From Clostridia bacterium (lineage in GTDB: Bacteria > Bacillota_A > Clostridia > Oscillospirales > Acutalibacteraceae): 18,356 bases of DNA. Numbering within the stretch: position 1 is the stretch's first letter; every line of letters starts with the position of its first letter. Shown in pieces: positions 337 to 16,771 of the stretch. A program made the translations under genes and the position numbers. Under the pieces are notes generated by a model. It was not told the DNA's origin and did not search any database. It worked only from the letters and a program-made list of their open reading frames with translations. Location: positions 1 to 18,356 of the forward strand of contig JAILQN010000146.1 of assembly GCA_024699005.1 (NCBI GenBank), read 5' to 3'.

Positions 337-1557
337 TTACGGGCATACCGGGTGTTTTTCCGTGATGTACAGAAGATCGCGGATGCGCTCCGTGAATTCG
401 TCCAGGGTCATGGCGGCTATATTGTCGATCAGAATGATCTCGCTTTCCTTCGCTCTGTTCCTGATCGCCTTCGTGGCTTCGACCGATGAGAATATGACCG
501 GTTTCGCGTACTTTCCGCCGTAATAATGGGCCACAGTGTCGATTTCGTAGACATGCTCGTTTCTGATTTCCGTGTTTTTGCAGCTGATGAATGCCGCCTG
601 AAAACCGTTTGAAAGTATCAGATCGACCTCGTTGGTGACCTCCTCGGGCCTGTCCTGCACGCAGCCGTCCCAGTCCACGTTTACTCCGACGCTGCAGTCG
701 GCGAATACGCCGGAGGACAGGGCGGTATGATAGGCGTACATCTCAAAAGCGCTGCCGCCCTTGTCGAGCAGCAGTCTTTGATTTTCCGGGAGGTTTATTC
801 TGTACCTGACAAGCTCACCGTTCAGCACGATGATGTCGATTATTCCTGCTTTTTCAAGCGCAGTCAGAAAATACCGGCATCTTCCCATGCGGATGGAAGT
901 GAACTTTTTCAATATTTCGTCAGACGGAGCCCAAGGACTGTTCTCATTCTTAAGCGTGCAGAATGTGTTCCACTCCCGCGGGTGGTCTTTTACCGAGTTC
1001 CATACCCGTAGGATATTATCGCTGAAATTTTGCTCGGAAAGATTCGGCCTGAATTCATTTCTGCCCCTCAGAAGGCTGTTTGAAACCGCGGAACCCTGGA
1101 GCATTACAAGATCCACGACGTTCAGCACTCTTTTCTGCTCGGTGATCTCTTCCGTGTAGCCGGGAAAGATCCGGAAGAATTTTTTCCGCTGAAAATCAAA
1201 GTAATGTACGCGGACGTTGTCCGGCTTCCTGTCCGAAACGAATCTGCCCAGAGTGAAAACGAAGGATTCCGGACCGCCGGTAAGGTCGAAATCAAAACTG
1301 TCCTGATCGTTGACGATCCGTGAAATCGCGGCAATGATCCCGTCGGCGTCGTTGCCGCCGGTTCTGACGTAATGCGGATCAAGATGCATTTTTCTTTGGT
1401 TGAATTCGGAGAGCGCGTCAAAGATCAGGTCTATGCCGAAGATCTTTTTCTGATCGGCATAATAAAGGTAGTGTATTTCGTCGTAATCGAAATACAGCTG
1501 CGATATGCAGTTGTTCAGATTTTCCTCGTCAAAGAATTCGATAAGTACTTTTTTCAT
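337..1557 (-). CDS. card1: Card1/Can2-like CARF-domain nuclease (type III CRISPR ancillary effector)
   Basis: The 406-residue product has the layout of the Card1/Can2 (DUF1887) family: an N-terminal CARF Rossmann domain, a helical middle (about 180-260) and a C-terminal PD-(D/E)XK nuclease. The CARF ligand loop is visible as DFDLTGGPES (about 89-98). Nuclease residues are E272 in GSAFEMY, E310 and D312 in TNEVDLIL, and K327 in FISCKN. Known members are switched on by cyclic oligoadenylate from Cas10 and cut nucleic acids in trans; cA4 as ligand here is inferred. The ATG at 1557 is preferred over an in-frame start 150 nt upstream because the product then starts directly with the CARF beta strand (MKKVLIEFF), AGGA lies just upstream, and the longer form would translate a hairpin and part of a CRISPR repeat. 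It sits downstream of the mini-array on the same strand, with no clear promoter of its own. Confidence 0.85.
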   Translation of the reverse strand: MKKVLIEFFDEENLNNCISQLYFDYDEIHYLYYADQKKIFGIDLIFDALSEFNQRKMHLDPHYVRTGGNDADGIIAAISRIVNDQDSFDFDLTGGPESFVFTLGRFVSDRKPDNVRVHYFDFQRKKFFRIFPGYTEEITEQKRVLNVVDLVMLQGSAVSNSLLRGRNEFRPNLSEQNFSDNILRVWNSVKDHPREWNTFCTLKNENSPWAPSDEILKKFTSIRMGRCRYFLTALEKAGIIDIIVLNGELVRYRINLPENQRLLLDKGGSAFEMYAYHTALSSGVFADCSVGVNVDWDGCVQDRPEEVTNEVDLILSNGFQAAFISCKNTEIRNEHVYEIDTVAHYYGGKYAKPVIFSSVEATKAIRNRAKESEIILIDNIAAMTLDEFTERIRDLLYITEKHPVCP

Positions 1558-1575
1558 GATGTTCCTATCATTAAA

Positions 1576-1604
1576 ACACGGGGCGTGATCGTACCGCCCC
1601 GCGT
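1576..1604. terminator. GC-rich hairpin between mini-array and Card1-like gene (terminator or attenuator)
   Basis: CGGGGCG (1579-1585) pairs with CGCCCCG (1595-1601) around a 9-nt loop, with further pairing outside one mismatch. On the plus strand it is followed by TG and seven T, which makes a convincing terminator. On the minus strand the tail is only GTTTTAA, so transcription from the mini-array toward the nuclease gene may pass at least in part. It lies just upstream of the ribosome binding site of the nuclease gene. Confidence 0.6.
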
Positions 1605-1662
1605 TGTTTTTTTGCAGGATAAGGGGAAGAGTTGAATTCGGAGTTCCGGATTGCCGGGATTT

Positions 1663-1817
1663 TTTTGATTCCCCTGAATGGGTATGCAAGCTCTCTTGTA
1701 AAAGCACACTGCAAAGTGACGCTTGGTGGGTATCAATTCACGTAATGGGTATGCAAGAATCTTTTTATAAAGGAGGGAAAATAATGGATGTATTAATTCC
1801 CGTAATGGGTATGCAAG
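1663..1817 (-). CRISPR. Mini CRISPR array, three repeats and two spacers
   Basis: Three 28-nt repeats match those of the main array: 1663-1690 (plus-strand 5' half degenerate, 3' half intact), 1730-1757 (one mismatch) and 1790-1817 (one mismatch). Spacers are 39 nt (1691-1729) and 32 nt (1758-1789). Degeneracy at the left end and the leader on the right give leftward transcription, as in the main array. The 32-nt spacer contains AAAGGAGGG followed by ATG, a translation start. The crRNA-strand repeat ends in ATTGATAC, close to the ATTGAAAC 5' handle common in Cas6-processed repeats. It shares Cas6 and the Cmr complex with the main array in all likelihood. Confidence 0.93.
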
Positions 1818-1995
1818 AGAACAACATTTTGTTGACGGTTCTTATTATATCACCCGGATATGGCAGTGTCAAGTAAAAACAATATGCGTATATTCAAAAA
1901 TGGCGGCAAAAAATTAGGCAACCGTTGCAACGGATCGTTGAAAAATGCAGATTGTCGGTTTTGGATGAAACAAAAAATTGCGGTCAACTAAATAT
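1818..1995 (-). promoter_or_regulatory. Leader of the mini CRISPR array
   Basis: This region is a paralogue of the main array leader. Measured from the left edge of the -35 box, the conserved box TGGNGGNAAANAATTAGNCA begins at offset 34 and the ACTAAATAT motif ends at offset 128 in both copies, so there is no net insertion or deletion across about 129 nt. Next to the repeat is an inverted repeat CAACA-TTT-TGTTG (1822-1834). The position matching the rt-cas1 -35 box has changed from TTGACT to TCAACT, and no cas1 follows. Beyond it, 1996-2144 is moderately GC-rich with nothing recognised. Confidence 0.8.
1844..1872 (-). promoter_or_regulatory. Consensus promoter of the mini-array
   Basis: On the minus strand TTGACA (1867-1872), a 17-nt spacer and TATAAT (1844-1849) form a perfect sigma-A consensus. 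Transcription would start about 20 nt before the first repeat and run through the array toward the Card1-like gene. Confidence 0.85.
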
Positions 1996-2144
1996 TTTCG
2001 GGATTTTTCTGTAAAAGACGTTATTTTTGCGTTTTATACGTGGTGCGGGAAGATTGCTCTCCACGGTCCGCGCGGCGTTTGCCGGGCGGCTGCGGCATAA
2101 GGAGAAAACGCCTGTTCGGGGGGCGTCGGAAGGGATCCGAAAAC

Positions 2145-2167
2145 GGGGCGACAGATAATGCCGCCCC
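2145..2167 (-). terminator. Probable terminator of the cmr operon
   Basis: GGGGCG and CGCCCC form a 6-bp GC stem around an 11-nt loop; on the minus strand GTTTT follows. It begins about 20 nt after the stop codon of the exonuclease, the last gene of the operon. The stem is short and the T-run weak. Confidence 0.55.
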
Positions 2168-2185
2168 ATCTTTTGCCGGTCTTTG

Positions 2186-2701
2186 TCAGCGTTTGTAAAT
2201 CAGCTTATTCCACACCGCCGCTGTCATCAGAACGTCGTTCATTGCGTCGTGAGACGTCAGTTTTAAACCTGAAAACTCTTGCAGATCAATATCAAAACCG
2301 TAGCCTCTGGCGCAGAGCAGCGTGCTTAAGTCATAAATCGGAAAAGGCGCGAGCAGCGCTCTTTCTGGCAGGTCAAACCGGACGCATTCCTCAAAAAGCC
2401 GTGTCTCGACCGGATACTGCACGTAAGCAACGCAACGGGTTTCATTATTGCGGTGTCTGATCCAGAAGTTCCAGAATGCCGTGAGCATATCCGCCTGATC
2501 ATTGAAACGAAGATCGGCATTCTCAAGATAAGGAAATACGTTCTGCCGTACCCAGCGGGACTGTATGTCCTCTTTTTTTATCCTGACGGACGCGCAGAAC
2601 CGGTCGGTCTCTTTGCCGTCGTCGTCTGCCGCCAGGGCGGCAATGCTTAAAAACGCCCCGTAAAGACCGTCGGTTTCCGCATCAACAAAAAAAAGACTCA
2701 T
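2186..2701 (-). CDS. DEDD-family 3'-5' exonuclease (DnaQ/oligoribonuclease-like), last gene of the cmr operon
   Basis: A 171-residue, single-domain protein. Motif I is FFVDAETDG with D7 and E9; motif III is SHDAMNDV with H151 and D156, the HxAxxD form of the DEDDh subgroup. Motif II is less clear: AYVQYPVETRLF places E99 where an Asp is usual. The family removes nucleotides from 3' ends of DNA or RNA, or degrades very short oligonucleotides. Its ATG overlaps the cmr6 stop by one base (TAATG), so it is made with the Cmr complex. Possible roles are breakdown of the second messenger, trimming of prespacers or crRNA 3' ends, or target RNA decay. From memory, CorA-type III-B loci can carry a signal-degrading phosphodiesterase (NrN, a lyase or a DEDD enzyme), which favours the first. 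The function is inference. Confidence 0.75.
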   Translation of the reverse strand: MSLFFVDAETDGLYGAFLSIAALAADDDGKETDRFCASVRIKKEDIQSRWVRQNVFPYLENADLRFNDQADMLTAFWNFWIRHRNNETRCVAYVQYPVETRLFEECVRFDLPERALLAPFPIYDLSTLLCARGYGFDIDLQEFSGLKLTSHDAMNDVLMTAAVWNKLIYKR

Positions 2702-3606
2702 TACGTTTCGCCGGCCTGTCTGACGGAGAGAACAAGATTTCCGTTTTGCGTGATCTTTAATACTTTGACCGTTACCTTATCACCTACATGTAAAAATGCA
2801 TTGATATTCGTGACCTTTCCGGCAGCGATCTCGGATTTGCTGACCGAGCCTTTTTTGTCGCACCCGTCGAGTTTGACGAATGCGCCGAAATCCGTGATCC
2901 CGGTGATTGTTCCGGGTAGGACTGCGCCTGCCGTCACCTCCGGACCTGCCGTCGCTGCCTCGGATTGCTCAACAGGAATAAGCGCGCCGTATCCGACATT
3001 TGTCTTTGCTCCGACGCCTGCCGCTCTGAGCGCGGTCCGGAAAAGCTCCTCTTTTTCGTCCTTTTGTATAATATCGTCGGTAAGAATAAAACGGAATTCG
3101 AAAACAACGTCAGGCAGGATCTTCAGCATAAGCAGCGGGACCGGATTCCTGAAAGCGGACTTATGCGGGGTGATGTAATCTGTGCCGAGTATTCTTCCGT
3201 TCCGGTTTGCCTTATACACTACGGCGTCAAAAAACACGTCGCCGCCTTTTTCAAATATGCCTTCAACGGTTTCTTTGTCGAACCCTGTTTTTTCGAAAAA
3301 GCTCCTGATGATCCCCTTTACGCTGCTGCCCGGGACATAGGGCTGTCCGGTCGTGTAATCAAACGAGAAACCGATTTTGATATTATCGTCGTCCTGTCCG
3401 GCGTTATGGGCATAACCGGTGCCGACCATCATGCCGGGGTAGGTCGTTTTCATGTGAAAACAGGTGTAGCCGTCAAGTCCGTTCAGGCCGCTTTCCGCGT
3501 AATCGGATGCCGTTAATGTGGTCCTGAAAATCTCTTTGTTTTTTTCGCTTAAGCTTTGTTTGCCGTCATAGTAAGTCTTGTAAAACAAAAGGCCAAGATT
3601 GTTCAT
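2701..3606 (-). CDS. cmr6: Cmr6 RAMP subunit with C-terminal S1 RNA-binding domain
   Basis: Residues 1-210 are a Cas7-type RAMP of the Cmr6 family: MVGTGYAHNAG and YVPGSSVKGIIRSFF (about 60-104), ending with the glycine loop GVGAKTNVGYG (about 197-207). Cmr6 caps the type III-B backbone on the 3' side of the crRNA. After an Ala/Pro/Thr-rich linker (211-229), residues 230-297 form an S1 domain: PGTITGITDFGAFVKLDG, then GDKVTVKVLKI and LVLSV. The usual S1 motif LVHISEI reads GSVSKSEI here. An S1 domain is not part of the standard Cmr6 as I know it, and it suggests extra RNA contact at one end of the complex. The gene starts 11 nt after cmr5 with TAGGAGG upstream, and no frameshift separates the two parts. 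Confidence 0.85.
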   Translation of the reverse strand: MNNLGLLFYKTYYDGKQSLSEKNKEIFRTTLTASDYAESGLNGLDGYTCFHMKTTYPGMMVGTGYAHNAGQDDDNIKIGFSFDYTTGQPYVPGSSVKGIIRSFFEKTGFDKETVEGIFEKGGDVFFDAVVYKANRNGRILGTDYITPHKSAFRNPVPLLMLKILPDVVFEFRFILTDDIIQKDEKEELFRTALRAAGVGAKTNVGYGALIPVEQSEAATAGPEVTAGAVLPGTITGITDFGAFVKLDGCDKKGSVSKSEIAAGKVTNINAFLHVGDKVTVKVLKITQNGNLVLSVRQAGET

Positions 3607-3617
3607 GTCACAGCCTC

Positions 3618-3992
3618 CTACACAAGATCGAATGAGTTCATCGCCAGTTTGAGCGCTACGGAAGCGTTTATGAAGTCTTCTTTCATTTCATCCATTGATT
3701 TGCCTTTGAGATCCGAAACCTCATCAAAGATGTCTTTTGCTTCTTTCCATTGGCCTTTTGTTATAAAATACAACGCTTTTATGAGTTCGGTGCGCTCTAT
3801 AGTGCTGGAGCCCTTATCACTGAAAAACGCCACGGCTGCCCTGAAAGACCCCATGGTTATGGCTGCGCCGAACGTAGAGATGGCGCCGCGGAAAGTTTTT
3901 TCGATTTTTCCGTTTTTGGCGATCTTCAGATTTTCGTTTTTCAGGGCTTTGATGGCAACGGGGATATATTCTTCAACTTTCCTTTTGTTCAT
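3618..3992 (-). CDS. cmr5: Cmr5 small subunit (Cas11) of the type III-B complex
   Basis: A small all-helical protein of 124 residues from the ATG chosen here. The Cmr5 signature is visible as GAAITMGSFRAAVAFFS. Cmr5 forms the inner filament along the Cmr4 backbone and contacts the target RNA strand. The ATG two bases after the cmr4 stop has a purine-rich GAGGGGG about 10 nt upstream; a GTG nine bases earlier, inside the cmr4 end, would add three residues but sits almost on top of that Shine-Dalgarno sequence. Position between cmr4 and cmr6 is the classical order. Confidence 0.85.
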   Translation of the reverse strand: MNKRKVEEYIPVAIKALKNENLKIAKNGKIEKTFRGAISTFGAAITMGSFRAAVAFFSDKGSSTIERTELIKALYFITKGQWKEAKDIFDEVSDLKGKSMDEMKEDFINASVALKLAMNSFDLV

Positions 3993-3994
3993 GA

Positions 3995-4780
3995 TCAGCA
4001 CGCCCCCTCTTTTAAAAGCGTAAGTCTGCAGTAACCGCAGCCTATGGACGCGTTCGCGCCGAACTGGATCACTGCGCCGTCAGGGATGACGTTGAGTATA
4101 TCTTCCCTGTTGTATTTATCGGGAGTCAGAACTATAAGATAAAATGCGCTTCCGTGCGGCACATACTCTTCATACCAGAGGTTTTTGCTCGTGCCGGTTT
4201 CGTCGTCAAGCGCGTTCCGGGCTATTACAGGCAGACCGTAATTGTCAAAACTCCTTGCGATAGCGTAGTTATCCACTCCGAGCACGTTTTTGATGGCGTC
4301 ATCCGGTTCGAGTCTGTTATCGGTTTTGTCTCCTTCTACGGAACTCACCCGGTCGTCTGTTGTTGCAAACGCATATCCGGGAGCTATGGACGGATCTTTC
4401 GGTTTAACGCCGAATCCGCATCCGAATGCTTCAGCTTTGGAGAGATAATCGTTGACGGCTTTTATGGTGGTGACCGGGACGTAAGGAACAGATCCTGTCG
4501 TTCTCATCGGCCTGTAAAGGAAGCTTGCTTCAAAAAATTTAAACTCTCCGGAGTTCATACGCTGCGCGTCGCCGACGGATCCGAAAACTTTGCTGACGTC
4601 AACGCCGCAGCGGCTTTCACAATAATCCCTTACGGCGCCTTTTACCCCTGACGCGTTTATGACCGGATAACCTGTTACGGGATCTTTTTCCACCTCATTG
4701 TCTATGATGGAAAAATTGACGTCGCCGGAACCTACGTGTAAATTTGTGAGACACTCTATTTTGTACAGATAAGATTTCAT
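3995..4780 (-). CDS. cmr4: Cmr4 backbone subunit (Cas7), target-RNA nuclease
   Basis: The 261-residue product starts with the Cmr4 signature: LTNLHVGSGDVNFSIID, then DPVTGYPVINASGVKGAVRDY. Cmr4 forms the repeated backbone along the crRNA and cuts target RNA at 6-nt steps. D27, in SIIDNEVEKD, aligns with the catalytic Asp of known Cmr4 proteins, so target cleavage is probably retained. A GASIGCGYCRL stretch near the C terminus matches the RAMP glycine loop. The start overlaps the cmr3 stop by four bases (ATGA), suggesting translational coupling. Confidence 0.9.
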   Translation of the reverse strand: MKSYLYKIECLTNLHVGSGDVNFSIIDNEVEKDPVTGYPVINASGVKGAVRDYCESRCGVDVSKVFGSVGDAQRMNSGEFKFFEASFLYRPMRTTGSVPYVPVTTIKAVNDYLSKAEAFGCGFGVKPKDPSIAPGYAFATTDDRVSSVEGDKTDNRLEPDDAIKNVLGVDNYAIARSFDNYGLPVIARNALDDETGTSKNLWYEEYVPHGSAFYLIVLTPDKYNREDILNVIPDGAVIQFGANASIGCGYCRLTLLKEGAC

Positions 4781-5820
4781 TTTATTACCCCTTTTAAAAT
4801 AATGCTGTTAAATCCTATGGTTGCTGCGTTCCGTTGCTTCCCGGATGGCTCATAGTCAAACCGATCCGTCGGGATCGCAATGCTTCCGGCTTTGATAAAG
4901 CGGTGCAGACAATCGCCTCTCTGAACGTGTCCTGAATCCAGAACGGCAAACGAACGGAAATCCCTCGTTGCGACTGCCGCAAACTGAAATCGGGAATAAA
5001 TATCCTCAAGACGTGAATCCGTAAAAAAGTCGCTTGCGAAATAGACGAAGTCGTCCGGCTCGACTCCGACCCGCTGCCTTGCCTGCGTTATTATGCTTCC
5101 TGCCTTGTTTTCAAGACTTTCGCCGGTATAAAGCGCCATGTTCACCGAAAACGGCGATTTGCCCTGCCCGAGCAGAACGGCCTGATTGCTCAGTTCCGGC
5201 GCGGCATCGATATCGGCAATAACGGCGAATGAAAAACCGCTATTTAACAGTTTGTATTCCTTTTTGAACAGTCCGTCGTTGTCGCTGCGCCTGTTGATCC
5301 CGATCTGAACGCTGCTGCTGAACACATCCCGCTCAATATGCCCGTCACATAAGGACATACACGATGATTCGATGCCTTTTTTTGAATCATATTGTTCTGT
5401 GTACAGCTTTTCTCCGTCAGCAGTTGTCATTTTACGGTAATCGCTCAGAGGAGTATAAACGCCGCTGTCTGAGGAGCGGTTATGGTCGTACGGAGTGGGA
5501 ATGAACCATTCGTCATCCTTTGCGAGGAAGACCGGAGACATGGACCTGATCGCCCCGAAATCCTGTACCGTTCCGGAATCGATGATAAACGGCTTTCTGC
5601 CTATGAGCGACGCGCTGTTTCCGGCGGTTTCAAAGCTTTTTTCCGGAAGCAGAAGATACCTGAGCGCACCGAACAGGGTCGTTTGCAGCGGACTGTTTTC
5701 TCCGCTTATGAAATATGTAATATTTTCGGAATTATCGTTTTTGCCGTAGCTTAAACGCTTTTCGTTTCCGAAGAAGTATTCTCCGGACGGAGTAAATCTG
5801 ACAAGATACCGGCTCATCAT
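4777..5820 (-). CDS. cmr3: Cmr3-like RAMP subunit (Cas5) of the type III-B complex
   Basis: A 347-residue RAMP protein between cas10 and cmr4. The N terminus YLVRFTPSGEYFFGNEKR followed by SPLQTTLFGALRYLLLP resembles Cmr3, whose N-terminal half carries a 'TP...FF..' strand and a 'TLxGALR' helix. Cmr3 grips the 5' repeat handle of the crRNA and joins it to Cas10. The C-terminal ATIGFNSIIL is a weak form of the RAMP glycine loop. The start overlaps the cas10 stop by four bases; AAGGAGG precedes two consecutive ATG codons, and the second (5817) has the better spacing, so the true start may be one codon later. The assignment rests on motifs and gene order. Confidence 0.78.
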   Translation of the reverse strand: MMSRYLVRFTPSGEYFFGNEKRLSYGKNDNSENITYFISGENSPLQTTLFGALRYLLLPEKSFETAGNSASLIGRKPFIIDSGTVQDFGAIRSMSPVFLAKDDEWFIPTPYDHNRSSDSGVYTPLSDYRKMTTADGEKLYTEQYDSKKGIESSCMSLCDGHIERDVFSSSVQIGINRRSDNDGLFKKEYKLLNSGFSFAVIADIDAAPELSNQAVLLGQGKSPFSVNMALYTGESLENKAGSIITQARQRVGVEPDDFVYFASDFFTDSRLEDIYSRFQFAAVATRDFRSFAVLDSGHVQRGDCLHRFIKAGSIAIPTDRFDYEPSGKQRNAATIGFNSIILKGVIK

Positions 5821-7259
5821 TTTACCTCCTTCTCAACAAAGAACTTAATGATACGCAGAACCGCCGCAAATACCTGTGCGCGGCTGCCGCTGTCTGTGAT
5901 TCTGATTTTTCCCGTGGTGATGTTCTCGTCAAAGAAGTCCGGTAATTCCCTGTGGAAATACGATGCCGAATTGCTCAGGTGAAAATCCGCGTCAAAGGTG
6001 TTTCTGAACAAGCTTGCGGAACCGGAATCAACGTTGTCAAAAAGAACGCTGAATAGCGCGACCTTCTGCCCCGCGGATAAGAAAACTTTTTCGGTGCCGT
6101 CTTTGCTGCGCTCCTGTTCGATCGCCGGTTTCAGACGGCGGTTGAACGCGTCAAGCGCGTCGTTTGATATGCATAGTTCCACGCTCTGCCCCGAGTGTTT
6201 CTGGAGACGGACTGCGATACAGTTCTTTCCGCCCTTCTGCTTGTCCTTGGCTATGCCGAAAAGCTGATATGCGGACAGATCCAATGCCTCATACAGCGGG
6301 AATTTCTCATAACCTATAAACAAGCCGAAAGAAAGCCCGACCTTTATTCCGGCGGAAAGATTATCGGAACAGCTTTTGAAACTGTCTGAAAAAACCTTAT
6401 TGATGCTGCCGATAAGATCAAAAACAGTTTCGCCGCTCTCGTTTTCGCATGGGGTCAGCGCAAGCAGATCATCCCCGCCGGCGTAGATGGTGACGCCTCC
6501 GAAGCGTCTGACTTCAGCCGCAACGTTGCTGCAGTACTGAAGGCAGGTCTTCGAAAACTCTCTGCATTCCTGTTCGTTTTCAAGGTCTGCGATGATTTTG
6601 CTCATATTGTCGCCGTCCGCCCGCAGAATGCAGAAGTACCTGTTCTTCTTGTAACCGCGGCAGCGTTTTGAATAAGCGATTTCCGCCAGCGATTTTATCC
6701 TTCCGTCTTTGAAGAGCTGGAATTCGCCGGCGGCAATACCGAGCTTTTCGGTAATGGTATTCGAGATCTCGTTGTTGCTGAACTTCGCTGACAGTTCATT
6801 TCGCCGTTCAAGAGAATTAAACCGCCTGGTAAGTTCCATGCAGTCAAGCATTTTGGCGCAGCGGAGGATTATCTCCGATTCATCCGAATCGAAACTGCAT
6901 GCGGATATATTGACTGTCGACTGAAGGTATCCGATATCGACATCAAATGCTTCTGCGGTCCGGGAAAGCGCTTTCGCAAAAGAATCTTTCACGGCGGAGA
7001 TATCTTTGCCGCACCTGAAAATGATATGATCGTGAAAAACGCCGACCCCGTCGTTCCTGTTGATGAGCGGGTCATCAGGGTCAAAATAAGGTGTTACGAT
7101 CTCATTGCAGGTGCATATACTGTCTTCGACAAGCGCATTGCAAATGTTTTTCGCGAGGAATGAAAACATATAACTTGCAGCCCAAAGGGACGCCGGTTTG
7201 GAGGAAAGCGCCATTGTATCGCCGATAGGGCCGATCGTAACGGCAATATACTTACCCAT
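5817..7259 (-). CDS. cas10: Cas10/Cmr2 with active GGDD cyclase motif and no HD nuclease
   Basis: The 480-residue product begins directly with the first palm domain (YIAVTIGPIGDTMALSSKPA, then SLWAAS), typical of Cmr2. The second palm has CILRADGDNMSKI (about 211-222) and IYAGGDDLLAL (about 258-268, GGDD at 261-264), the nucleotide-binding and metal sites used to make second messengers from ATP. No N-terminal HD domain is present, so single-stranded DNA cleavage by Cas10 is not expected and immunity must act through Cmr4 and ancillary effectors. With a CorA-like effector in the operon, the product could be SAM-AMP instead of, or besides, cyclic oligoadenylate; that is inference. The ATG overlaps the cmr1 stop by one base (TGATG) with AGGAGG eight bases upstream; a GTG one codon earlier is less likely. 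Confidence 0.92.
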   Translation of the reverse strand: MGKYIAVTIGPIGDTMALSSKPASLWAASYMFSFLAKNICNALVEDSICTCNEIVTPYFDPDDPLINRNDGVGVFHDHIIFRCGKDISAVKDSFAKALSRTAEAFDVDIGYLQSTVNISACSFDSDESEIILRCAKMLDCMELTRRFNSLERRNELSAKFSNNEISNTITEKLGIAAGEFQLFKDGRIKSLAEIAYSKRCRGYKKNRYFCILRADGDNMSKIIADLENEQECREFSKTCLQYCSNVAAEVRRFGGVTIYAGGDDLLALTPCENESGETVFDLIGSINKVFSDSFKSCSDNLSAGIKVGLSFGLFIGYEKFPLYEALDLSAYQLFGIAKDKQKGGKNCIAVRLQKHSGQSVELCISNDALDAFNRRLKPAIEQERSKDGTEKVFLSAGQKVALFSVLFDNVDSGSASLFRNTFDADFHLSNSASYFHRELPDFFDENITTGKIRITDSGSRAQVFAAVLRIIKFFVEKEVK

Positions 7260-8410
7260 CACTGTATCCTCCTTATTTTAATTTGTCTCTCAAGGAATGA
7301 AGACAGCGCCGTCGTTCCTGAACCGGGATCGAGTTCGTTTCTTGTCTTGTTAAGCTCTGTGACGGCATAGGCAAGAAAACCGTCCATAAAGTTCTCGTCG
7401 ATTTGTTCTGACTTTTCCGGAACCGGGATCTTAACGGAAGATCCGCCTTTTTTAAATGTAAAGGTTTTGCCGAATATCCCGCTGTCGATTCTTTTCCCCA
7501 CGAAATACACGGTTCTGCCCACTATTTTGAAGAAGACGGTGGATTGATAACGCTCGATCTCCGGATTGCTGATGCTGATCGTGGTTTTGTCCCTTCTGTT
7601 GGAAAGGTCGTTTAAAAATTCAATATGATCGCCGACGCCGAGAAGAGAGCGCACGTATCGGCTCTCTTCATTATTGTTGTTCAGATCGTGCTGATGTCCG
7701 TGGCCGTTTGAAACTACAGGCGCTATGCCCTGCTGTTTGAGTTTCGCTTTTTCATTGCCGATCCCGAGCTTATGCATGTATAAGAACAGGAGGGACCGTC
7801 TGTAGCCATGGAAATTGACGCCGGACTTCATGATGGAGTAGATCGTCTTGATATCCTTGAAGGGCTTGTCCGATTCAAAGGCGTAGCAGACCTTTGCCTG
7901 ATATTCTTTTTTAAGTGCGGCGGCAACCGTGTTTTCATCCGGATCGCCGCCTGCGCAGAAGGATCCGAAACCTTTGCTCTGCATCCTGCCGAAATTTGTG
8001 ACAAGGAAGAATCCGGAAATAAGACTGCCGATCGTTTCCATGAGCTCATTGTCAAAACAAATGACAGTCATGGCGACGTCGGAGAGGAACCGGACGGCTT
8101 TTACAGGCCTGGTGTTTTTACCCATATTGCCGAAATAGATCTCATAATCTGTGCGCGGACCGAGATCCAGTCTTTCAAAATCGGGAGAAGAAAATCTCAG
8201 CTTGTAGTTCAAAGCGTCTTTGTCTCCGAGGAACCAGTTCTTATGTTCCTGCCTCACCTTTTCGGCGCCGCCGAGTTTTTTCAGAATGAATCTGTCAAGT
8301 TTCGGTTTGACTTCGGTCGCACGGAGCGTGGCGCCGGTTTGTTCTGACTGAAAATGGATCAGCGGGGAATGCTGCTTCAGGTGAAACACTTTTTCGTAAT
8401 CAGTGTTCAA
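7259..8410 (-). CDS. cmr1: Cmr1-like RAMP subunit of the type III-B complex
   Basis: A 383-residue RAMP. The N terminus HLKQHSPLIHFQSEQ followed by ATLRATEVKPKLDRFI matches the Cmr1 pattern of a first beta strand with 'TP', then 'LR.T.IK..LR'. The glycine-rich loop GRMQSKGFGSF lies at about 141-151. Cmr1 and Cmr6 lie at the 3' end of the crRNA in type III-B complexes. The start is TTG at 8410 with AAAGGAG seven bases upstream; no better ATG exists nearby. It begins 36 nt after the CorA-like gene and overlaps cas10 by one base. The Cmr1 call relies on motif, first-in-cmr position and the absence of any other candidate. Confidence 0.72.
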   Translation of the reverse strand: MNTDYEKVFHLKQHSPLIHFQSEQTGATLRATEVKPKLDRFILKKLGGAEKVRQEHKNWFLGDKDALNYKLRFSSPDFERLDLGPRTDYEIYFGNMGKNTRPVKAVRFLSDVAMTVICFDNELMETIGSLISGFFLVTNFGRMQSKGFGSFCAGGDPDENTVAAALKKEYQAKVCYAFESDKPFKDIKTIYSIMKSGVNFHGYRRSLLFLYMHKLGIGNEKAKLKQQGIAPVVSNGHGHQHDLNNNNEESRYVRSLLGVGDHIEFLNDLSNRRDKTTISISNPEIERYQSTVFFKIVGRTVYFVGKRIDSGIFGKTFTFKKGGSSVKIPVPEKSEQIDENFMDGFLAYAVTELNKTRNELDPGSGTTALSSFLERQIKIRRIQ

Positions 8411-8446
8411 ATCGTAACTCCTTTCATATTATGACGGTTTATATTT

Positions 8447-9982
8447 TCATTTTCTTTTCCTTCTGTAAACAAATCGGACCGCAAGAATCACTAATGCACC
8501 GGCAAGGATACTGAATCCCAGCCATTTGAACCATGGCGTGTCAGTCGGGAGCAGTTTCTCCAGAAATATCTCCTCAAGCGAATACAGCGCGCCGAGGATG
8601 GCGAAAATATAGCCTATTTTATTGAACCCCAGATCGAGGCAGGTGTCGGCAGAATCGTTGAGTGCTTCCATCTGTTCCCTTACGTTTGTCAGGCATACGT
8701 CCGTAAAGAAGAATTCCCTGAACATTGCGTAAATCTCAATTCCCTGTTCCTGAGGTGTGATCTCATTGAAGCAAAGCTGGCTCTCAAAAACCGAGAACCG
8801 CTCGCGCAGGTCCATAAGCTCGGATATGACTTTGTGACGGCTGTCTTTCCGCATTTTTGCGGAGATGAACGCCGCTTCATTCTGAAACAGGATCAGGGAC
8901 GCCTTCTGCGCAAGACAAAGGCGGGCAATGCTTACATATTGCGTAAGGAAATAAGGAATAAGATATTCCGCTTTGCCGTTGAAAACCATAATGAGACTCT
9001 GCGCGGCGACGGAATAGATGGATTTAGAGTTGAACCACCGTTTGTAAAGATGTTTGTCGAGCAGATCGAACAGCATACCGTCCGACTGGCAGCTGCAGCT
9101 GCCGTCCGTGTCGAGAAAAACCAGCTCGTAAAGAGACCGGGCTTTCCCTATGTCTTTCTGATAGGATCCATCCGCCAAAAAATCGTCTGTCGCGTTTTCG
9201 TCGTTTATAAGGCAGCAGACGAACATCCTGTCGTCGACAGCGGGATGGATATATACTTCGTTTTTCCCGTCACAGGGTTGAGAGCGGAATTTATAATTGC
9301 TTTTGTAACCCAGTGTGTTTTTGATGAGACTGCTGAGGTAATTCAGATGCAGATCCTTTTTTCTTTGATCGTCGTCCTTTCTGTTAATGCTTTCGATAAA
9401 AGCTTTGAAATCGGTTTCGAAACGGCATTCGGGGGAGATCTCGATCCCGATCTTATCGGCGCAGAGAGAGTATCCGAGCTGTTCCGGTATGAAAGGCAGC
9501 GTTATGCGTCTGCCGTATTCGTTGATGCTTTTTACGTCGGCAAGGGATCTTTGGCTTGTATCACGGTTTTCGCATTCAAGAATAAAAAGCGCGATCCCGG
9601 TGTTATATACGGACAGTCTTATCGCATTGATCAGCAGATTATAAGTCCTTTCATTTTTGGTTATACGATACGTTGCTTTCTCATGAACCTTCTGCGGCAG
9701 AAAAACGTAATTCCGGACTATTGCTTTGTCGTTCCCGTTCAGGGCCTGACTGACCTGCGGGTAAAAATACTGGTATTCGGCGTAAAATGAGAGCGCGTCG
9801 TCAAAAGGGCGGAAGCCTGTGTCCGGATCCGGATCTGCCGCCTCCCAGGCGGGACTGCAGTCGAAAATATCGGTGATCTTTTCGAATTTCAGCGGATGAT
9901 CGGCAATATCCTTCCATGCAAGCGGCAGAATAAAAGTGTGATAGCTGTATACTTCAGGAATATCAGGATTTGAGTTAACCAT
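8447..9982 (-). CDS. CorA-like membrane protein, probable second-messenger effector of the Cmr system
   Basis: A 511-residue protein with a large soluble part and two C-terminal transmembrane helices (about 454-474 and 488-506), ending in the basic YRRKRK. A long helix before them (about 385-450) and the 2-TM end give the CorA magnesium-channel layout. The GMN selectivity motif is absent, and the N-terminal 350 residues match nothing I recognise. From established work on type III-B systems, CorA-like effectors are activated by SAM-AMP made by Cas10 and kill or stall the cell by membrane damage. It is first in the cmr operon. The ATG at 9982 is chosen over one 147 nt upstream because GGAGG lies 10 nt before it and the longer form would translate through a terminator hairpin. 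Confidence 0.7.
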   Translation of the reverse strand: MVNSNPDIPEVYSYHTFILPLAWKDIADHPLKFEKITDIFDCSPAWEAADPDPDTGFRPFDDALSFYAEYQYFYPQVSQALNGNDKAIVRNYVFLPQKVHEKATYRITKNERTYNLLINAIRLSVYNTGIALFILECENRDTSQRSLADVKSINEYGRRITLPFIPEQLGYSLCADKIGIEISPECRFETDFKAFIESINRKDDDQRKKDLHLNYLSSLIKNTLGYKSNYKFRSQPCDGKNEVYIHPAVDDRMFVCCLINDENATDDFLADGSYQKDIGKARSLYELVFLDTDGSCSCQSDGMLFDLLDKHLYKRWFNSKSIYSVAAQSLIMVFNGKAEYLIPYFLTQYVSIARLCLAQKASLILFQNEAAFISAKMRKDSRHKVISELMDLRERFSVFESQLCFNEITPQEQGIEIYAMFREFFFTDVCLTNVREQMEALNDSADTCLDLGFNKIGYIFAILGALYSLEEIFLEKLLPTDTPWFKWLGFSILAGALVILAVRFVYRRKRK

Positions 9983-10008
9983 ATGCAAATGGCCTCCGGA
10001 AAAGGTGA

Positions 10009-10036
10009 ACAATATGGATCGGGGGGCGGTTTTCAA
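10009..10036 (-). promoter_or_regulatory. Candidate promoter of the corA-cmr operon
   Basis: On the minus strand TTGAAA (10031-10036) and TATTGT (10009-10014) are separated by 16 nt, just downstream of the hairpin that follows the array. The transcript would start about 20 nt before the ATG and still include GGAGG (9993-9997). The -10 box is imperfect. Confidence 0.4.
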
Positions 10037-10053
10037 TTGCCGCAGGGGTTTAT

Positions 10054-10092
10054 AAAAAAGGCTCTGGATTTTTGTCCGGTGCCGTTTTTTTT
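10054..10092. terminator. Bidirectional terminator hairpin between main array and cmr operon
   Basis: GGCTCTGGA (10060-10068) pairs with TCCGGTGCC (10075-10083) with two mismatches and a 6-nt loop. Six A precede it and eight T follow after one G, so either strand shows a stem plus T-run. It would end or reduce crRNA transcription before the CorA-like gene. Confidence 0.6.
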
Positions 10093-10195
10093 GTATTAAA
10101 AAGAGACAGCGCGACGCGCCTGCCTGCACGCACTATTGTAACTGGAATGCATGGGTTATGCTTATTATATCGTTTCTGTTGTTTCTCCGAAAATT

Positions 10196-12125
10196 GTATC
10201 AATTCCCGTAATGGGTATGCAAGAAGGACGGTCAGTTCATCGACCTGCTCATCAGCGTGCTCGCGTATCAATTCCCGTAATGGGTATGCAAGCGTGGAGT
10301 AAAAATGGATAATTATAATCCGTCAACAGTATCAATTCCCGTAATGGGTATGCAAGCAGTCGTTCGCTCAGGCGTGCATCGGAGCTGACGGCGAGTGGAG
10401 CAGTATCAATTCCCGTAATGGGTATGCAAGATTTTACAGCTGTGTGCCACTTTTTGTTTTGACATAATAGTATCAATTCCCGTAATGGGTATTCAAGTAC
10501 GGAATTAAAGAGGGAGGGGACATAACTTTCCATTAAAAAGTATCAATTCCCGTAATGGGTATGCAAGTCTGGAGTCGATACGGCTTCAAGGAGGAGGACC
10601 GCTACAATGTATCAATTCCCGTAATGGGTATGCAAGGAGAAATACCGTATCGAACAGGAAGAATTGGAAGCATTGTATCAATTCCCGTAATGGGTATGCA
10701 AGTTGCGGAAGCGAAAATCAACAAATTGCTTGATGAAATGTATCAATTCCCGTAATGGGTATGCAAGATCCGCTACAATGGCGGGCTTCACTCAGACTAG
10801 TAGCCCCAGTATCAATTCCCGTAATGGGTATGCAAGACCGTGCAGCATATCGAGCGCATCCCCGTTGAATAAAAGTATCAATTCCCGTAAAGGGTATGCA
10901 AGACAGTTATGGAAATCTCGAAGGACATAGATGTCCCTGCTGAGGTGTATCAATTCCCGTAAAGGGTATGCAAGTGGTGTCCTACCAAAAGGATGGATAT
11001 GCCCGTCATAAAGTATCAATTCCCGTAAAGGGTATGCAAGGAGATCGAGTTAGTAGAGAGGAAAATAAAAAAAACAAGGTATCAATTCCCGTAAAGGGTA
11101 TGCAAGCTTCACTCAGACTAATCCATCCCAAAAACCAATTTTCTTAAGTATCAATTCCCGTAAAGGGTATGCAAGGGAACTTACCTCGGCTGACAAAGCC
11201 GATGAAACACTAGTATCAATTCCCGTAAAGGGTATGCAAGCAGAACGTTCCGGTCGCCGTTTGCGTGGCTGAACAGAAGGTATCAATTCCCGTAATGGGT
11301 ATGCAAGTTTTTTAACAGAAACGCTGTTAGGTATTTGCGCACTTATTGTATCAATTCCCGTAATGGGTATGCAAGCCTTTTACTCAAATGAGCAAGGGTA
11401 TGTACGGCAGGCGCAATGGTATCAATTCCCGTAATGGGTATGCAAGATTTAATAAAATATGAAAGGAGACTTCGAAATGAAGAATGTATCAATTCCCGTA
11501 ATGGGTATGCAAGTACCCAAAGGATGGGTGGTCCCTTCACACAAGTCCGGGTATCAATTCCCGTAATGGGTATGCAAGTTTTTTTTAACAGAAACACTAC
11601 TAGGTGTGTGCGCACTTATTTGTATCAATTCCCGTAATGGGTATGCAAGAAACAACAAACTGGTAGCAATCAGAGCGTACAACAAAAAGTATCAATTCCC
11701 GTAATGGGTATGCAAGAAAACGTGGAGATTAACATGTACGATTACAATGCTAGTACTGTATCAATTCCCGTAATGGGTATGCAAGTATTTCAAAAAATAT
11801 TGAGGGGAGGGAAAAGAATATGATCGTATCAATTCCCGTAATGGGTATGCAAGCAAATACTTATTCGTCAGAAGCTATCTCAGAAGCTATCATTGGTATC
11901 AATTCCCGTAATGGGTATGCAAGTAATAATTAGAAAGGAAGTTTAAGTTGTTATGGTATCCATAGTATCAATTCCCGTAATGGGTATGCAAGAATCTAAA
12001 AAGGAGGAATCTTGTATGAGAGCATTGTATCAATTCCCGTAATGGGTATGCAAGGTATATTTCCCGCACAATCACAACAACCGATTGCACTGTAATGGTA
12101 TCAATTCCCGTAATGGGTATGCAAG
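10196..12125 (-). CRISPR. Main CRISPR array, 29 repeats and 28 spacers, type III-B
   Basis: Twenty-nine 28-nt repeats (plus strand GTATCAATTCCCG, then TAATGGGTATGCAAG) are separated by 28 spacers of 34-46 nt, mostly 37-43. Repeat 5 (10470-10497) has one change near its end (ATTCAAG), and six consecutive repeats, 11-16 (10875-11240), carry T17A. The leader lies on the right and the crRNA strand is minus: the repeat then ends in ATTGATAC, resembling the ATTGAAAC handle cut by Cas6. New spacers are therefore added at the right end. Many spacers read on the plus strand as coding or translation-start sequence, so crRNAs are antisense to those mRNAs. Open frames crossing the array are repeat artefacts, not genes. 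Confidence 0.99.
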
Positions 12126-12300
12126 AACAACAAATTGTTGACTTTTATATTATATATGCAAGATATGGATCTGTCAAGACTGAATTTGACGGAATGGTAT
12201 TTTATTGGAGGAAAACAATTAGTCATAGTGTGTTCTGAAACGCACAAAAAACCATTATACGGGAAAAATGCTGTCGGAAAAATTGTGGTTGACTAAATAT
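12126..12300 (-). promoter_or_regulatory. Leader of the main CRISPR array
   Basis: AT-rich region between the newest repeat and rt-cas1, paralogous to the mini-array leader. It holds an exact inverted repeat CAACAA-A-TTGTTG (12128-12140) two bases from the repeat, the crRNA promoter, a conserved box TGGNGGNAAANAATTAGNCA (12206-12225) and a conserved ACTAAATAT end that coincides with the -35 region of rt-cas1. Divergent transcription of crRNA and adaptation genes starts from this segment. Confidence 0.85.
12149..12177 (-). promoter_or_regulatory. Consensus crRNA promoter of the main array
   Basis: On the minus strand TTGACA (12172-12177), a 17-nt spacer and TATAAT (12149-12154) match the sigma-A consensus at all 12 positions. 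Expected start is near 12142, so the CAACAA/TTGTTG hairpin would lie at the 5' end of the pre-crRNA. Confidence 0.9.
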
Positions 12301-12334: not shown

Positions 12335-14236
12335 ATGATAAAACTGGTTTTTACGCCGGAAGATCTTCTCCGGCACTGCAGGGAGCTGGGGGGCGGACGC
12401 GCGTTTTCCCCGGGGTTTGACAAAATGCCCCCCGAGGGAGCTCTTCAGTGGCTGAAATACAACGGAGAAAAGCTGTGCGCGCAGCTCAACGCCGGTAAAT
12501 ACAGGGTGATGCCCGCATGTGGTTTTTACGTCGCGAAGCGGGACGGACACTATCGCCGGCTGGCGCGGCTGACCGCGATAGACCGTGTGATCCAGGCCGA
12601 CGCTCTTGAAATGCTCTCCCCGTTCTGTGAGGAGAGATTTTCCCCGTTCAGCTTTGCGTACCGCAGGGGCAGGGGCACGGGAAGCGCGCTGCGTCAATAC
12701 TGTGAATACGCGTCGCAGTACCCGTTCGCCGCGAAGATCGACCCGGTCGCCTGCTTCGACAGCATCCGCCACGATGAGCTTGAAAAAGCCCTGACCGGTT
12801 TTTTCTCTCACGGTAAAACCGTTTCGCTGCTTATGTCCTTCGCAAAAATGCCGCTGATCCTCGACGGGGAACTGACGGAAAGGAACGGCGGGCTGCTTCA
12901 GGGCGCCCCGGCAAGCGGGATGCTGTGCAACGTGTATTTTCACGCACTCGATATGGCGCTGACTCAGAGGCAGATCCCGTTTCTTCGCTACGGTGACGAC
13001 GTTGTGGTCTTCGCTTCTTCGCCGGACGCTGCGAAGGAGGCGTCCGGGTTCGTCCGCTCGTATATGGAGCGCTCTCTCGGATTGAGGATCAACCTTTCAA
13101 AGAGCCGTGTGGACGCTTCGGAAAAGCTGAAATACCTCGGGCATGGCTTTATCCGTGACGGCAGCGGGATCATACAGATCGGTCCCGGCGAAAAAAGCGC
13201 TTCCGCGTATTATGAGTGGAACATATCAAAACCGCGCAACCACAGAAACAGCATGGATATCCTCTCCTCCGGAATACTTCGTCAGAAGGACTATTCTGCA
13301 ATATTTGAGAGCGATACGGAAAGATACGCTCTGCCCCTTGACGCCATTGAGCGCATCAATATTTTTTCTTCCGTGATATTTGACAGCGGCTTTCTGGAAA
13401 AAGCCATGAGGGCGGGAGTCTGCGTAAACGTTTTCGGCAAAAACTATGATTTTCTGGGCAGGTTCGTCCCGGCTGCACCGATCAGGAACCAGCAACTGAT
13501 ATTTGAACAGCTGATCGCATATAACGACCCGGCGGCGCGCCTTGAGCTCGCGAAACAGTTCGATCTTGCCTCGGTTCATAATCTGAGGCTCAATATCAGA
13601 TATTACAACAAACAGCGCGGCAATGAACGTTTTGAGCAAACTCTCGCGGAAATAAACAGTCTGTACCGTCGGATGAAGGACTGCTGCCGGTATTCCGAAC
13701 TGCTCCTGCTTGAAGCGCGGATCCGGGAGCTGTATTACGGCTGCTTTGATCTTTTTATAAGCAATCCGCTGTTCTCCTTCGGCGTAAGATCAAGACAGCC
13801 TCCGCTGAACGAAGTAAATTCGCTGTTGAGTTTCGGCAACGTGGTGTTGTATAATTATATCGCTACGGAGCTGTATAAGTCCTCTTTGGATATACGCGTC
13901 GGGTTCCTTCATGCGACCAACCGGCGAAAGGAATCCCTGAACCTCGATATAGCCGAGATATTCAGACCGCTGCTCGTGGACCGTGTGGTCTTTGCCATGA
14001 TAAACAGAAAAGAGATCGATCCCGGCTGCTTCGATACGGAGGAAAACGGAGGCGTATATATGAATGAGGAGGGGAAGCGTCTGTATCTGCGGGACTTTTA
14101 CGAAAAGCTCAACTCCACTCTTCAGATACGCGACCGGCAGCTAAGTTACGCCATGCTGATAGACGACGAGATACATAAGCTGACAAGGCGGTTCCGGAAC
14201 GGCGAAGAATACAAAGCGTACAGGCAGGTGAGATAG
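12335..14236 (+). CDS. cas1: Reverse transcriptase-Cas1 fusion protein
   Basis: The 633-residue protein joins a group II intron-like reverse transcriptase (about 1-285) to Cas1 (about 305-633). RT motifs: KIDPVACFDSI with D136 (motif A), LLQGAPASGMLCN (motif B, about 188-199), YGDD at 219-222 (motif C, usually YADD in relatives), INLSKSRV (motif D) and LKYLGHGF (motif E). Cas1 residues: E460 in LLLEARIRELYY, H526 in GFLHATNRRKESLNLD, and E541 in IAEIFRPLLVDR. Such fusions, with Cas2, acquire spacers from RNA as well as DNA. No Cas6 domain is fused in front, unlike many relatives; Cas6 is separate here. Translation starts with MIKLVFTP at the first ATG, close to the predicted transcript start and without an evident ribosome binding site. 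Confidence 0.97.
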   Translation: MIKLVFTPEDLLRHCRELGGGRAFSPGFDKMPPEGALQWLKYNGEKLCAQLNAGKYRVMPACGFYVAKRDGHYRRLARLTAIDRVIQADALEMLSPFCEERFSPFSFAYRRGRGTGSALRQYCEYASQYPFAAKIDPVACFDSIRHDELEKALTGFFSHGKTVSLLMSFAKMPLILDGELTERNGGLLQGAPASGMLCNVYFHALDMALTQRQIPFLRYGDDVVVFASSPDAAKEASGFVRSYMERSLGLRINLSKSRVDASEKLKYLGHGFIRDGSGIIQIGPGEKSASAYYEWNISKPRNHRNSMDILSSGILRQKDYSAIFESDTERYALPLDAIERINIFSSVIFDSGFLEKAMRAGVCVNVFGKNYDFLGRFVPAAPIRNQQLIFEQLIAYNDPAARLELAKQFDLASVHNLRLNIRYYNKQRGNERFEQTLAEINSLYRRMKDCCRYSELLLLEARIRELYYGCFDLFISNPLFSFGVRSRQPPLNEVNSLLSFGNVVLYNYIATELYKSSLDIRVGFLHATNRRKESLNLDIAEIFRPLLVDRVVFAMINRKEIDPGCFDTEENGGVYMNEEGKRLYLRDFYEKLNSTLQIRDRQLSYAMLIDDEIHKLTRRFRNGEEYKAYRQVR

Positions 14237-14500
14237 TTGTTCGTGATTCTGTGTTATGATATCGGCGTAAAAAGAAACGCGAAGGTAAAAAAGATCGCGA
14301 GGCGCTATCTCCGGCCTGTTCAGGAATCCGTGTGCGAGGGCTTCCTGACCGACGGAAAACTGAAAAGGCTTTGTCTGCAGCTGAAAAACGTGATCGACCC
14401 GGAAGAGGATTCCGTGGTGATTTACAAGCTTGCCGCCGCCCCCGGCTTTGAGAAAGCCGTGATAGGGCAGGCGCTGAAAAACGAGGATCTTATTCTCTGA
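14237..14500 (+). CDS. cas2: Cas2 (spacer acquisition)
   Basis: An 87-residue Cas2 with the first strand FVILCYDIG carrying the conserved Asp (residue 8) and a ferredoxin-like length. Cas2 forms the central dimer of the Cas1-Cas2 integrase. It starts at a TTG directly after the rt-cas1 stop (TAG TTG); a GTG two codons later is an alternative. The tight junction suggests coupled translation and a matched protein ratio. The product ends ALKNEDLIL without extra domains. Confidence 0.93.
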   Translation: MFVILCYDIGVKRNAKVKKIARRYLRPVQESVCEGFLTDGKLKRLCLQLKNVIDPEEDSVVIYKLAAAPGFEKAVIGQALKNEDLIL

Positions 14501-14514
14501 CAGGGTGATGTATT

Positions 14515-15231
14515 ATGCAGATCAAACTCAGGCTTCGCCCCGAAAGACCGCTGATCATCCCGTACAACTATAACTACCAGCTTCAGAGCGCCCTTTACTC
14601 CATGCTGGGGGAGGTGGGCGAGTCCGATTTCTGGCATGACAACGGTTTCGGCGACGCTGCAGTATTCAAAGGCTTCTGCTTCAGCGGACTGAACGGGAAA
14701 TACCGCGTTGACACGGAAAACAGACGGCTCTGCTATCAGGATAACGTGTATCTTGAAGTCAGAAGCTGCTCGTTTGATTTTATCGACTCGTTTCAGAGAG
14801 CGGTGGAGCGTCATCCGTATATAAAACTGTTCGATACGCGTCTGGATATCACGGACGCTTCGCTGCTGAACGTCCACCTGATGACCGGACGTGTTCTGTT
14901 CGACGCTGTTACTCCGGTTGTTGCGCACAGTACGGCTGAGGACGGGCATACCCGCTATTTCTCCCCGGAGGAGGATGAGTATTATATCCGGATCTGTTCC
15001 AACGCGGAGAAAAAATACGAAGCTGTCGCCGGCAGTCCCGTTCCCGCCATCGCTTTACGTCCGGCCGGGGAATTCAAAAGAATCGTGAAGAATTACAAGG
15101 GGTTTTATATCTGCGGGTATATCGGCACTTTCGGGCTCGATACGTCGCTGCGTATGGCGGAATTTCTGTATAACACCGGTCTGGGTGAAAAAAACGCACA
15201 GGGCTTCGGTTTTGTGAATATTCGTGAATGA
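14515..15231 (+). CDS. cas6: Cas6 pre-crRNA endoribonuclease
   Basis: A 238-residue RAMP endonuclease that cuts the repeat to leave an 8-nt 5' handle. The C-terminal glycine loop GLGEKNAQGFGFV (about 222-234) is diagnostic. H41 in DFWHDNGF is a likely catalytic His, by analogy with the N-terminal His of Cas6 proteins. It begins 14 nt after cas2 with a weak GGGTGA ahead of the ATG. It is the only crRNA-processing enzyme visible and must serve both arrays. Its stop lies 10 nt before pyk. Confidence 0.92.
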   Translation: MQIKLRLRPERPLIIPYNYNYQLQSALYSMLGEVGESDFWHDNGFGDAAVFKGFCFSGLNGKYRVDTENRRLCYQDNVYLEVRSCSFDFIDSFQRAVERHPYIKLFDTRLDITDASLLNVHLMTGRVLFDAVTPVVAHSTAEDGHTRYFSPEEDEYYIRICSNAEKKYEAVAGSPVPAIALRPAGEFKRIVKNYKGFYICGYIGTFGLDTSLRMAEFLYNTGLGEKNAQGFGFVNIRE

Positions 15232-16657: not shown

Positions 16658-16719
16658 AGTTCAAAGTTCCAAGTTCCAAGTTCAAAGTTCCAAGTTCCAA
16701 GGTTTAAGTTCCAAGTTCC
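16657..16719 (+). repeat. Nine tandem heptamers, consensus AAGTTCC
   Basis: Nine consecutive 7-nt units starting in the pyk stop codon: six AAGTTCC, two AAGTTCA and one AAGGTTT. The complementary unit GGAACTT recurs downstream of the four-helix-bundle gene at about 17201-17217 and 17273-17290, so that gene is bracketed by the same heptamer in opposite orientations. Confidence 0.9.
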
Positions 16720-16771
16720 GAGATTCAGGGTTTGAAGATACAAAACACAAGGATAAAAAGAGACGCCGGTT

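Follow-up and report, generated by a model that had tools for sequence, protein, structure and literature searches.

The window analysed here, a whole stretch of 18,356 nt of DNA, is a type III-B CRISPR-Cas locus with two arrays and 30 spacers in all. Its genes, arrays and leader promoters are listed below.

337..1707, minus strand: CARF-PDDEXK (Card1-like) nuclease; the first match was below the cut-off, a second search supports it
1663..1817, minus strand: mini-array; one degenerate repeat leftmost (left end approximate), two clear repeats (1730-1757 and 1790-1817) and two spacers (1691-1729 and 1758-1789)
1844..1872, minus strand: mini-array leader promoter, TTGACA-17-TATAAT, layout as in the main array; from the leader alignment, coordinates counted by hand
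2186..2701, minus strand: DEDDh nuclease (E = 2e-5)
2701..3606, minus strand: Cmr6 with a C-terminal S1 RNA-binding domain, above cut-off
3618..4001, minus strand: Cmr5 (PADLOC model)
3995..4780, minus strand: Cmr4, above cut-off
4777..5820, minus strand: Cmr3 (PADLOC model; below the NCBIfam cut-off)
5817..7262, minus strand: Cas10/Cmr2 (TIGR02577, 94.8 bits against a cut-off of 79.4), with AGGDD (GGDD)
7259..8410, minus strand: Cmr1 (PADLOC model)
8447..10129, minus strand: CorA-like membrane protein (E = 6.5e-65), true start probably further in
10196..12125, minus strand: main CRISPR array, 29 repeats of 28 nt and 28 spacers, crRNA from the minus strand
12149..12177, minus strand: main-array leader promoter, TTGACA-17-TATAAT, 12/12 matches, directed into the array
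12335..14236, plus strand: RT-Cas1 fusion of 633 aa, RT motif RYGDD
14237..14500, plus strand: Cas2 (search match)
14515..15231, plus strand: Cas6 (search match)

By predicted gene content, Cas10/Cmr2 with its GGDD motif and Cmr1, Cmr3, Cmr4, Cmr5 and Cmr6 make up a type III-B effector, and the RT fused to Cas1, plus Cas2, makes up an RT-Cas1 adaptation module. The gene layout of CorA/SAM-AMP systems, corA and a phosphodiesterase-like DEDDh gene beside the cmr genes, is present, with corA on one side of the cmr block and the DEDDh gene on the other. CARF-PDDEXK nucleases of this kind elsewhere respond to cyclic oligoadenylate. Together, the CorA/DEDDh pair and the CARF-PDDEXK nuclease (337-10129, minus strand) may give this single locus two signalling outputs. 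A short tandem repeat of AAGTTCC-like heptamers lies at 16657-16726, flanked by pyruvate-kinase-like and four-helix-bundle-like genes (named by reading).

The right flanks of the main array and the mini-array are similar when both leaders are aligned, and both carry perfect sigma-70-type promoters directed leftward. Since the leader promoters point leftward and the repeat polarity agrees, the crRNAs of the window are minus-strand transcripts and the plus strand is the target (mRNA) sense. Read on the plus strand, the near-identical spacers 11308-11347 and 11579-11621 encode FLTETLLG(I/V)CALI; three of their differences are synonymous and one swaps I and V, a pattern that is an independent mark of plus as the mRNA sense. 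Thus, leader promoters, repeat polarity and this coding pair all agree with the first-pass annotation, which had taken the crRNAs to be antisense to mRNA. Several window spacers contain stop codons. Six consecutive repeats (10875-11240) carry one common substitution (GTAAAGGG for GTAATGGG), with the usual form on either side.

Homologous sites recur among the spacers: 11308-11347 with 11579-11621, 10293-10328 with 11717-11757, 10975-11012 with 11514-11550, and 10568 with 10768 and 11107 (the 10293/11717 and 10568/10768 overlaps were found by reading the sequence). Related elements were apparently sampled repeatedly at homologous sites, in one pair with nearly identical boundaries. Two related loci described below, L006 and L016, hold similar homologous spacer pairs.

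Start sites in the spacers were counted with a strict motif, a 5-base Shine-Dalgarno sequence followed after 3-10 nt by ATG; looser and tightest versions were counted as well. The spacers credible as start sites by reading are as follows.

1758..1789, plus strand: mini-array spacer with a strong start site, AAAGGAGGG then ATG
10293..10328, plus strand: moderate start site, reads MDNYNPST; looser motif
11447..11485, plus strand: strong start site, AAAGGAG-8-ATG
11717..11757, plus strand: moderate start site, reads MYDYNAST; looser motif
11786..11825, plus strand: strong start site, GAGGGGAGGG-8-ATG
11924..11964, plus strand: weaker start site, AAAGGAAG, TTG or ATG; motif version allowing GTG/TTG
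11993..12026, plus strand: strong start site, AAGGAGG-8-ATG

The spacers at 10293 and 11717 apparently hold the same gene start from two related elements. Eight spacers had been named earlier as carrying a Shine-Dalgarno sequence and a start codon, and the seven above stood up to reading. The eighth, 10568-10608 (plus strand), was rejected: it contains WSRYGFKEEDRYN in frame and overlaps 10768-10808, which continues RYNGGLHSD-stop, so that it reads as coding sequence close to a gene end. Two strict matches that had not been named, 10903 and 10975, read as coding and are probably due to chance.

The strict motif was found on the plus strand of 6/30 window spacers, whereas dinucleotide shuffles averaged 0.74, and on the minus strand of 0/30, as the first-pass annotation had noted for the opposite strand. 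Its further claim, that start sites exceed what random sampling of mRNA would give, also held against random sense windows of phages, which stand in for the targets: P = 0.0006 (strict, 6/30), 0.0009 (looser, 8/30) and 0.025 (tightest, 3/30). The window by itself is moderate evidence for a start-site excess, and the relatives make the evidence strong.

Related loci were collected by scanning genome contigs with a profile of 28 RT-Cas1 proteins, and 80 loci (numbered with an L) were kept. The RT-Cas1 fusion was present in 22/80, and 19 of those 22 had arrays; no array was found in L004, L005 and L009. The titles of the RT-Cas1 loci were mostly Bacillota, with one Treponema MAG, and the closest titled relative of the window RT-Cas1 among the 80 was L001, an uncultured Clostridia MAG (59% identity). 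In L021 (12796-16920), RT-Cas1 lies near a Cas13a (type VI-A) gene. The 19 loci and the window form the RT set, 20 loci with arrays and 229 distinct spacers of 25-50 nt, after 12/241 spacers outside this length or duplicated were removed. Trimming of repeat remnants in L010 and L017 changed the strict counts from 26 vs 0 to 25 vs 0. L023-L025, in which the RT was not found or cut off, were set apart; in their 20 spacers, the strict motif occurred once on the target strand and never on the opposite one. When the set was to be enlarged, alignment against 394, 392, 76 and 73 genomes returned only the known RT-Cas1 loci and five plain-Cas1 genomes, and no RT-Cas1 was found in the viral contigs searched. 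Additional arrays from the L012 genus gave 20 spacers listed as new; all ten of L234 were those of L010 (same contig), one of which had been dropped for length. One spacer of L232 was nearly identical to one of L225. These two loci (10 spacers) showed the looser motif three times on the target strand and never on the other, and were left out of the main counts.

The predicted leader side of the related arrays was set by the repeat end ATTGA(A/T)AC. The promoter of the window arrays recurs on this side in L002, L003, L006, L007 and L008, 52-53 nt from the first repeat and with a spacing of 16 or 17; one of the three L003 arrays scores 11/12 for it. In the remaining RT loci, the best promoter match was 8-11/12 and sometimes not on the leader side (one L013 array has 11/12 on the other side). 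A degenerate terminal repeat lay on the predicted trailer side in 17/17 arrays having one. Six RT arrays were oriented by hand after the counts had been printed, with the automatic orientation reversed for L010, L018 (one array) and L021. These reoriented arrays add no strict match after trimming.

In the RT-Cas1 arrays, the strict motif occurred on the target strand of 25/229 spacers (10.9%) and on the crRNA strand of 0/229; without the window, the counts were 19 vs 0 of 199. Thus, with orientation by promoter and repeats, the start sites show a complete target-strand polarity (25:0). Random sense windows of four phages gave 717/20,000 (3.6%), with 122 in antisense; these phages are stand-ins, not the real targets, and shorter target genes would raise the expected rate. 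The tightest motif was found in 21/229 RT spacers (9.2%) and 424/20,000 phage windows (2.1%). The difference between the RT spacers and the phage windows was significant by Fisher's test (P = 1.2e-6 strict, with an odds ratio of 3.3; P = 4e-8 tightest). Bootstrapping by locus placed the strict rate at 5.8-16.1%.

Ordinary sampling might give such rates if the genes of the targets were very short and their Shine-Dalgarno sequences strong, and the strict rate does vary from 2.3 to 4.0% among the four phages that stand in for the real targets. However, tight matches recur in 11/20 RT loci with arrays, from different hosts (they are absent in 9/20), and by our estimate the start-site density would need to be 2-3 times that of the reference phages. 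We regard this explanation as very unlikely. The bias is real and repeated in related loci.

Not all RT-Cas1 arrays show it. The cyanobacterial RT-Cas1 arrays had no excess (strict, 4 vs 1 of 205), and those of Rhodococcus and Tistrella (20 spacers) had the strict motif on neither strand. By effector kind, the tightest motif was found in 6/59 spacers of four loci with a III-B-kind Cas10 and in 10/67 spacers of six III-D-like loci, a label that rests partly on weak matches; the grouping covers these ten loci. The single Cas13a locus with RT had tight matches in 0/6. Enrichment among the newest spacers was not significant, with 28/144 among the five leader-proximal and 14/95 elsewhere (rank test, P = 0.14).

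For comparison, loci without RT were analyzed, sorted by repeat type only after the counts had been printed. In RT-less type III arrays, the strict motif occurred on the target strand of 15 and the crRNA strand of 1 of 280 spacers (target strand 5.4%; bootstrap by locus 3.0-7.8%), and the tightest in 9/280 (3.2%). RT-less loci with I-B-like repeats gave 17 vs 19 of 778, and plain-Cas1 arrays, a set unsorted by effector type that includes archaea and other phyla, gave 32 (1.5%) vs 23 of 2,076. The arrays of L180, L193, L206 and L208 were assigned to neither control set. When all 31 RT-less Cas10-linked stretches were pooled, the strict motif was found on the target strand of 32/1,058 spacers and on the crRNA strand of 20. 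L109, a locus of the mixed set among these controls, had five strict sites on its assigned crRNA strand and none on the other; therefore, either the strand excess there is of opposite sign or the orientation of L109 is wrong.

The first-pass annotation had proposed the comparison with type III arrays lacking RT, and its outcome favours the bias: the RT arrays exceed the RT-less type III arrays with P = 0.03 (strict, 10.9% vs 5.4%), 0.0003 (looser) and 0.007 (tightest), and with P = 0.10, 0.002 and 0.008, respectively, without the window. The modest strict contrast counts against the capture reading favoured below, as does the finding that the RT-less type III arrays were themselves somewhat above the phage windows (5.4% vs 3.6%, P = 0.14).

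The same arrays bear on selection after acquisition. Uptake could be more even, and crRNAs against translation-initiation regions could protect best and hence be kept, through accessible RNA, early transcription or blocked translation. The 15:1 target-strand polarity of the RT-less type III arrays is in agreement with selection, as is the S1 domain of the window Cmr6, and in Thermus the type III strand bias arises by selection and not by acquisition, according to the available text of PMC7515739. However, RT-less type III systems should feel a similar selection, yet they lie near the composition-matched expectation (strict, 15 vs 12.0, 1.25-fold, P = 0.23; looser, 20 vs 22.5; tightest, 9 vs 7.2). 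Moreover, the start-site pattern occurs with more than one effector kind, and no S1 match was found in the fetched stretches of the other 22 RT-Cas1 loci. Selection is thus a rather unlikely source of the excess, with some weight.

The target strand of the RT spacers is 36% A, and start sites are commoner in phage windows matched to this composition (5.4% strict) than in windows left unmatched (3.4%). A machinery that prefers A- or purine-rich RNA would therefore meet start regions merely as the richest in such RNA. A share of the start-site excess does stem from this composition: after matching, the RT spacers exceed phage mRNA about 2-fold, down from about 3-fold. The excess survived matching with 39-nt windows, at 25 vs 12.3 expected (strict, 2.0-fold, P = 1e-3), 41 vs 22.7 (looser, 1.8-fold) and 21 vs 8.3 (tightest, 2.5-fold), and matching may over-correct because start sites themselves shape composition. 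Dinucleotide shuffles of the RT spacers (n=300) averaged 5.5 strict sites and never exceeded 13, against the 25 observed, and the RT spacers without a strict site resemble low-GC phage windows in base composition. Composition as the whole cause is improbable.

The mean predicted RNA folding energy of the RT spacers (-4.37) was nearly equal to that of low-GC phage windows (-4.34); therefore, no general preference for unstructured RNA is evident. In the 26 strict matches before trimming, the ATG lay 12-36 nt from the 5' end of the spacer with no favoured place, which speaks against a sharp footprint. ATG triplets in general were most frequent at offsets 5-25, as counted in spacers and not along mapped genes. 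Gene ends were not clearly enriched: spacers without any open frame made up 5.2%, or 3.4% once the start-site spacers were excluded, against 2.0-3.1% of phage windows.

No convincing protospacers were found when 5 of the 31 RT arrays were compared with phages. The window main array and single arrays of L006, L003 and L012 gave no match, and a single L016 array gave one weak 30-nt match (E = 0.03). Five spacer patterns had no match in viral contigs. Compared with 18 and 14 genomes from the respective family or genus, the L016 and L012 arrays gave weak, mostly A-rich matches. Two L012 spacers fell at start-like places in relatives (27/34 and 26/36 bases), too weakly to be taken as protospacers. 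Against their own genomes, the L016, L012 and L006 arrays matched themselves, other arrays or array-like sequences, and one weak piece; the weaker L012 matches were only partly identified.

The orientation, the target-strand polarity and the excess over both phage mRNA and RT-less type III arrays are direct observations. Capture by RT-Cas1 is favoured because the start excess sets the RT arrays apart and spans more than one effector kind. That RT-Cas1 captures the start regions of mRNAs is thus the leading candidate explanation, at roughly even odds. The RT-Cas1/Cas2 proteins would capture foreign mRNA over a stretch that begins near the Shine-Dalgarno sequence and extends into the early codons. 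The crRNAs, transcribed leftward, would therefore be complementary to the mRNA start region, and the Cmr complex could bind this region through them. The excess would then arise at RNA capture and not in later selection, and the spacers would come from phage or other foreign mRNA. That the module takes its spacers mainly from foreign mRNA, concentrated around ORF starts, we hold to be neither probable nor improbable on balance. More tentatively, RT-Cas1/Cas2 of this clade may specifically capture translation-initiation regions, for example as fragments protected by initiation complexes or as 5'-end fragments, so that the crRNAs strike where viral translation begins.

Which RNAs RT-Cas1 systems select, and from what source their largely unmatched spacers derive, is treated as open in the available text of PMC5513706. 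In that study, 2,054 RT-linked spacers gave few matches. The start-site bias can be read from the spacers alone, with no protospacer needed, and suggests that they come from translated messages. It would also bear on tools that record transcription with RT-Cas1. Among the literature titles and abstract openings listed, there was no report of start sites in RT-Cas1 spacers. A word search of PMC11014452 gave no matches, and the start codon mentioned in the available part of PMC8102632 belongs to a reporter plasmid.

Strand bias by itself is ordinary for type III systems. Coding-strand spacers make up 65% on average in type III arrays (PMC8482600, available text), and type III interference requires such polarity, which selection can produce (PMC7515739, PMC8482600). 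The window shares with those arrays crRNAs complementary to mRNA; the available text of PMC8482600 covers strand and not position within genes, with 'start codon' and 'gene start' absent from it. The III-B system of Marinomonas mediterranea (Silas et al., PMC5576922) also has RT-Cas1, Cas2 and a Cmr effector. In its available text, acquisition of spacers from RNA is demonstrated, and the orientation of new Marinomonas spacers is only partly related to the source transcript; in the window, RNA uptake is predicted from the genes. A word search for 'start codon' in the texts of PMC5576922 and PMC5513706 gave no match.

The first-pass annotation had called the capture of start sites a new bias, which is too strong. 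Biases of this kind are already known in part, the nearest precedent being start-codon-proximal acquisition, reported in the available part of a review (PMC9048733): per this review, Zhang et al. 2021 found that coding-strand spacers of the RT-free type III-A system of S. thermophilus were enriched at positions about 10-50 bp downstream of the start codon. Both cases thus have in common that spacers of coding-strand sense are enriched close to gene starts. In S. thermophilus, however, there is no RT, the genes are those of the host, and the enrichment is ascribed to single-stranded DNA structure, whereas in the window and its relatives the arrays are linked to RT-Cas1, the motif spans the Shine-Dalgarno sequence and the ATG, and the spacers are naturally kept ones and not those of an acquisition assay. 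As for the signalling genes, the CorA-associated type III-B system of Bacteroides fragilis (PMC10600005, available text) likewise combines cmr genes with corA and a gene for a small phosphodiesterase, and some such loci have RT-Cas1. In the window, where the layout is read from the genes, the phosphodiesterase-like gene is a predicted DEDDh nuclease and a CARF-PDDEXK nuclease is present in addition.
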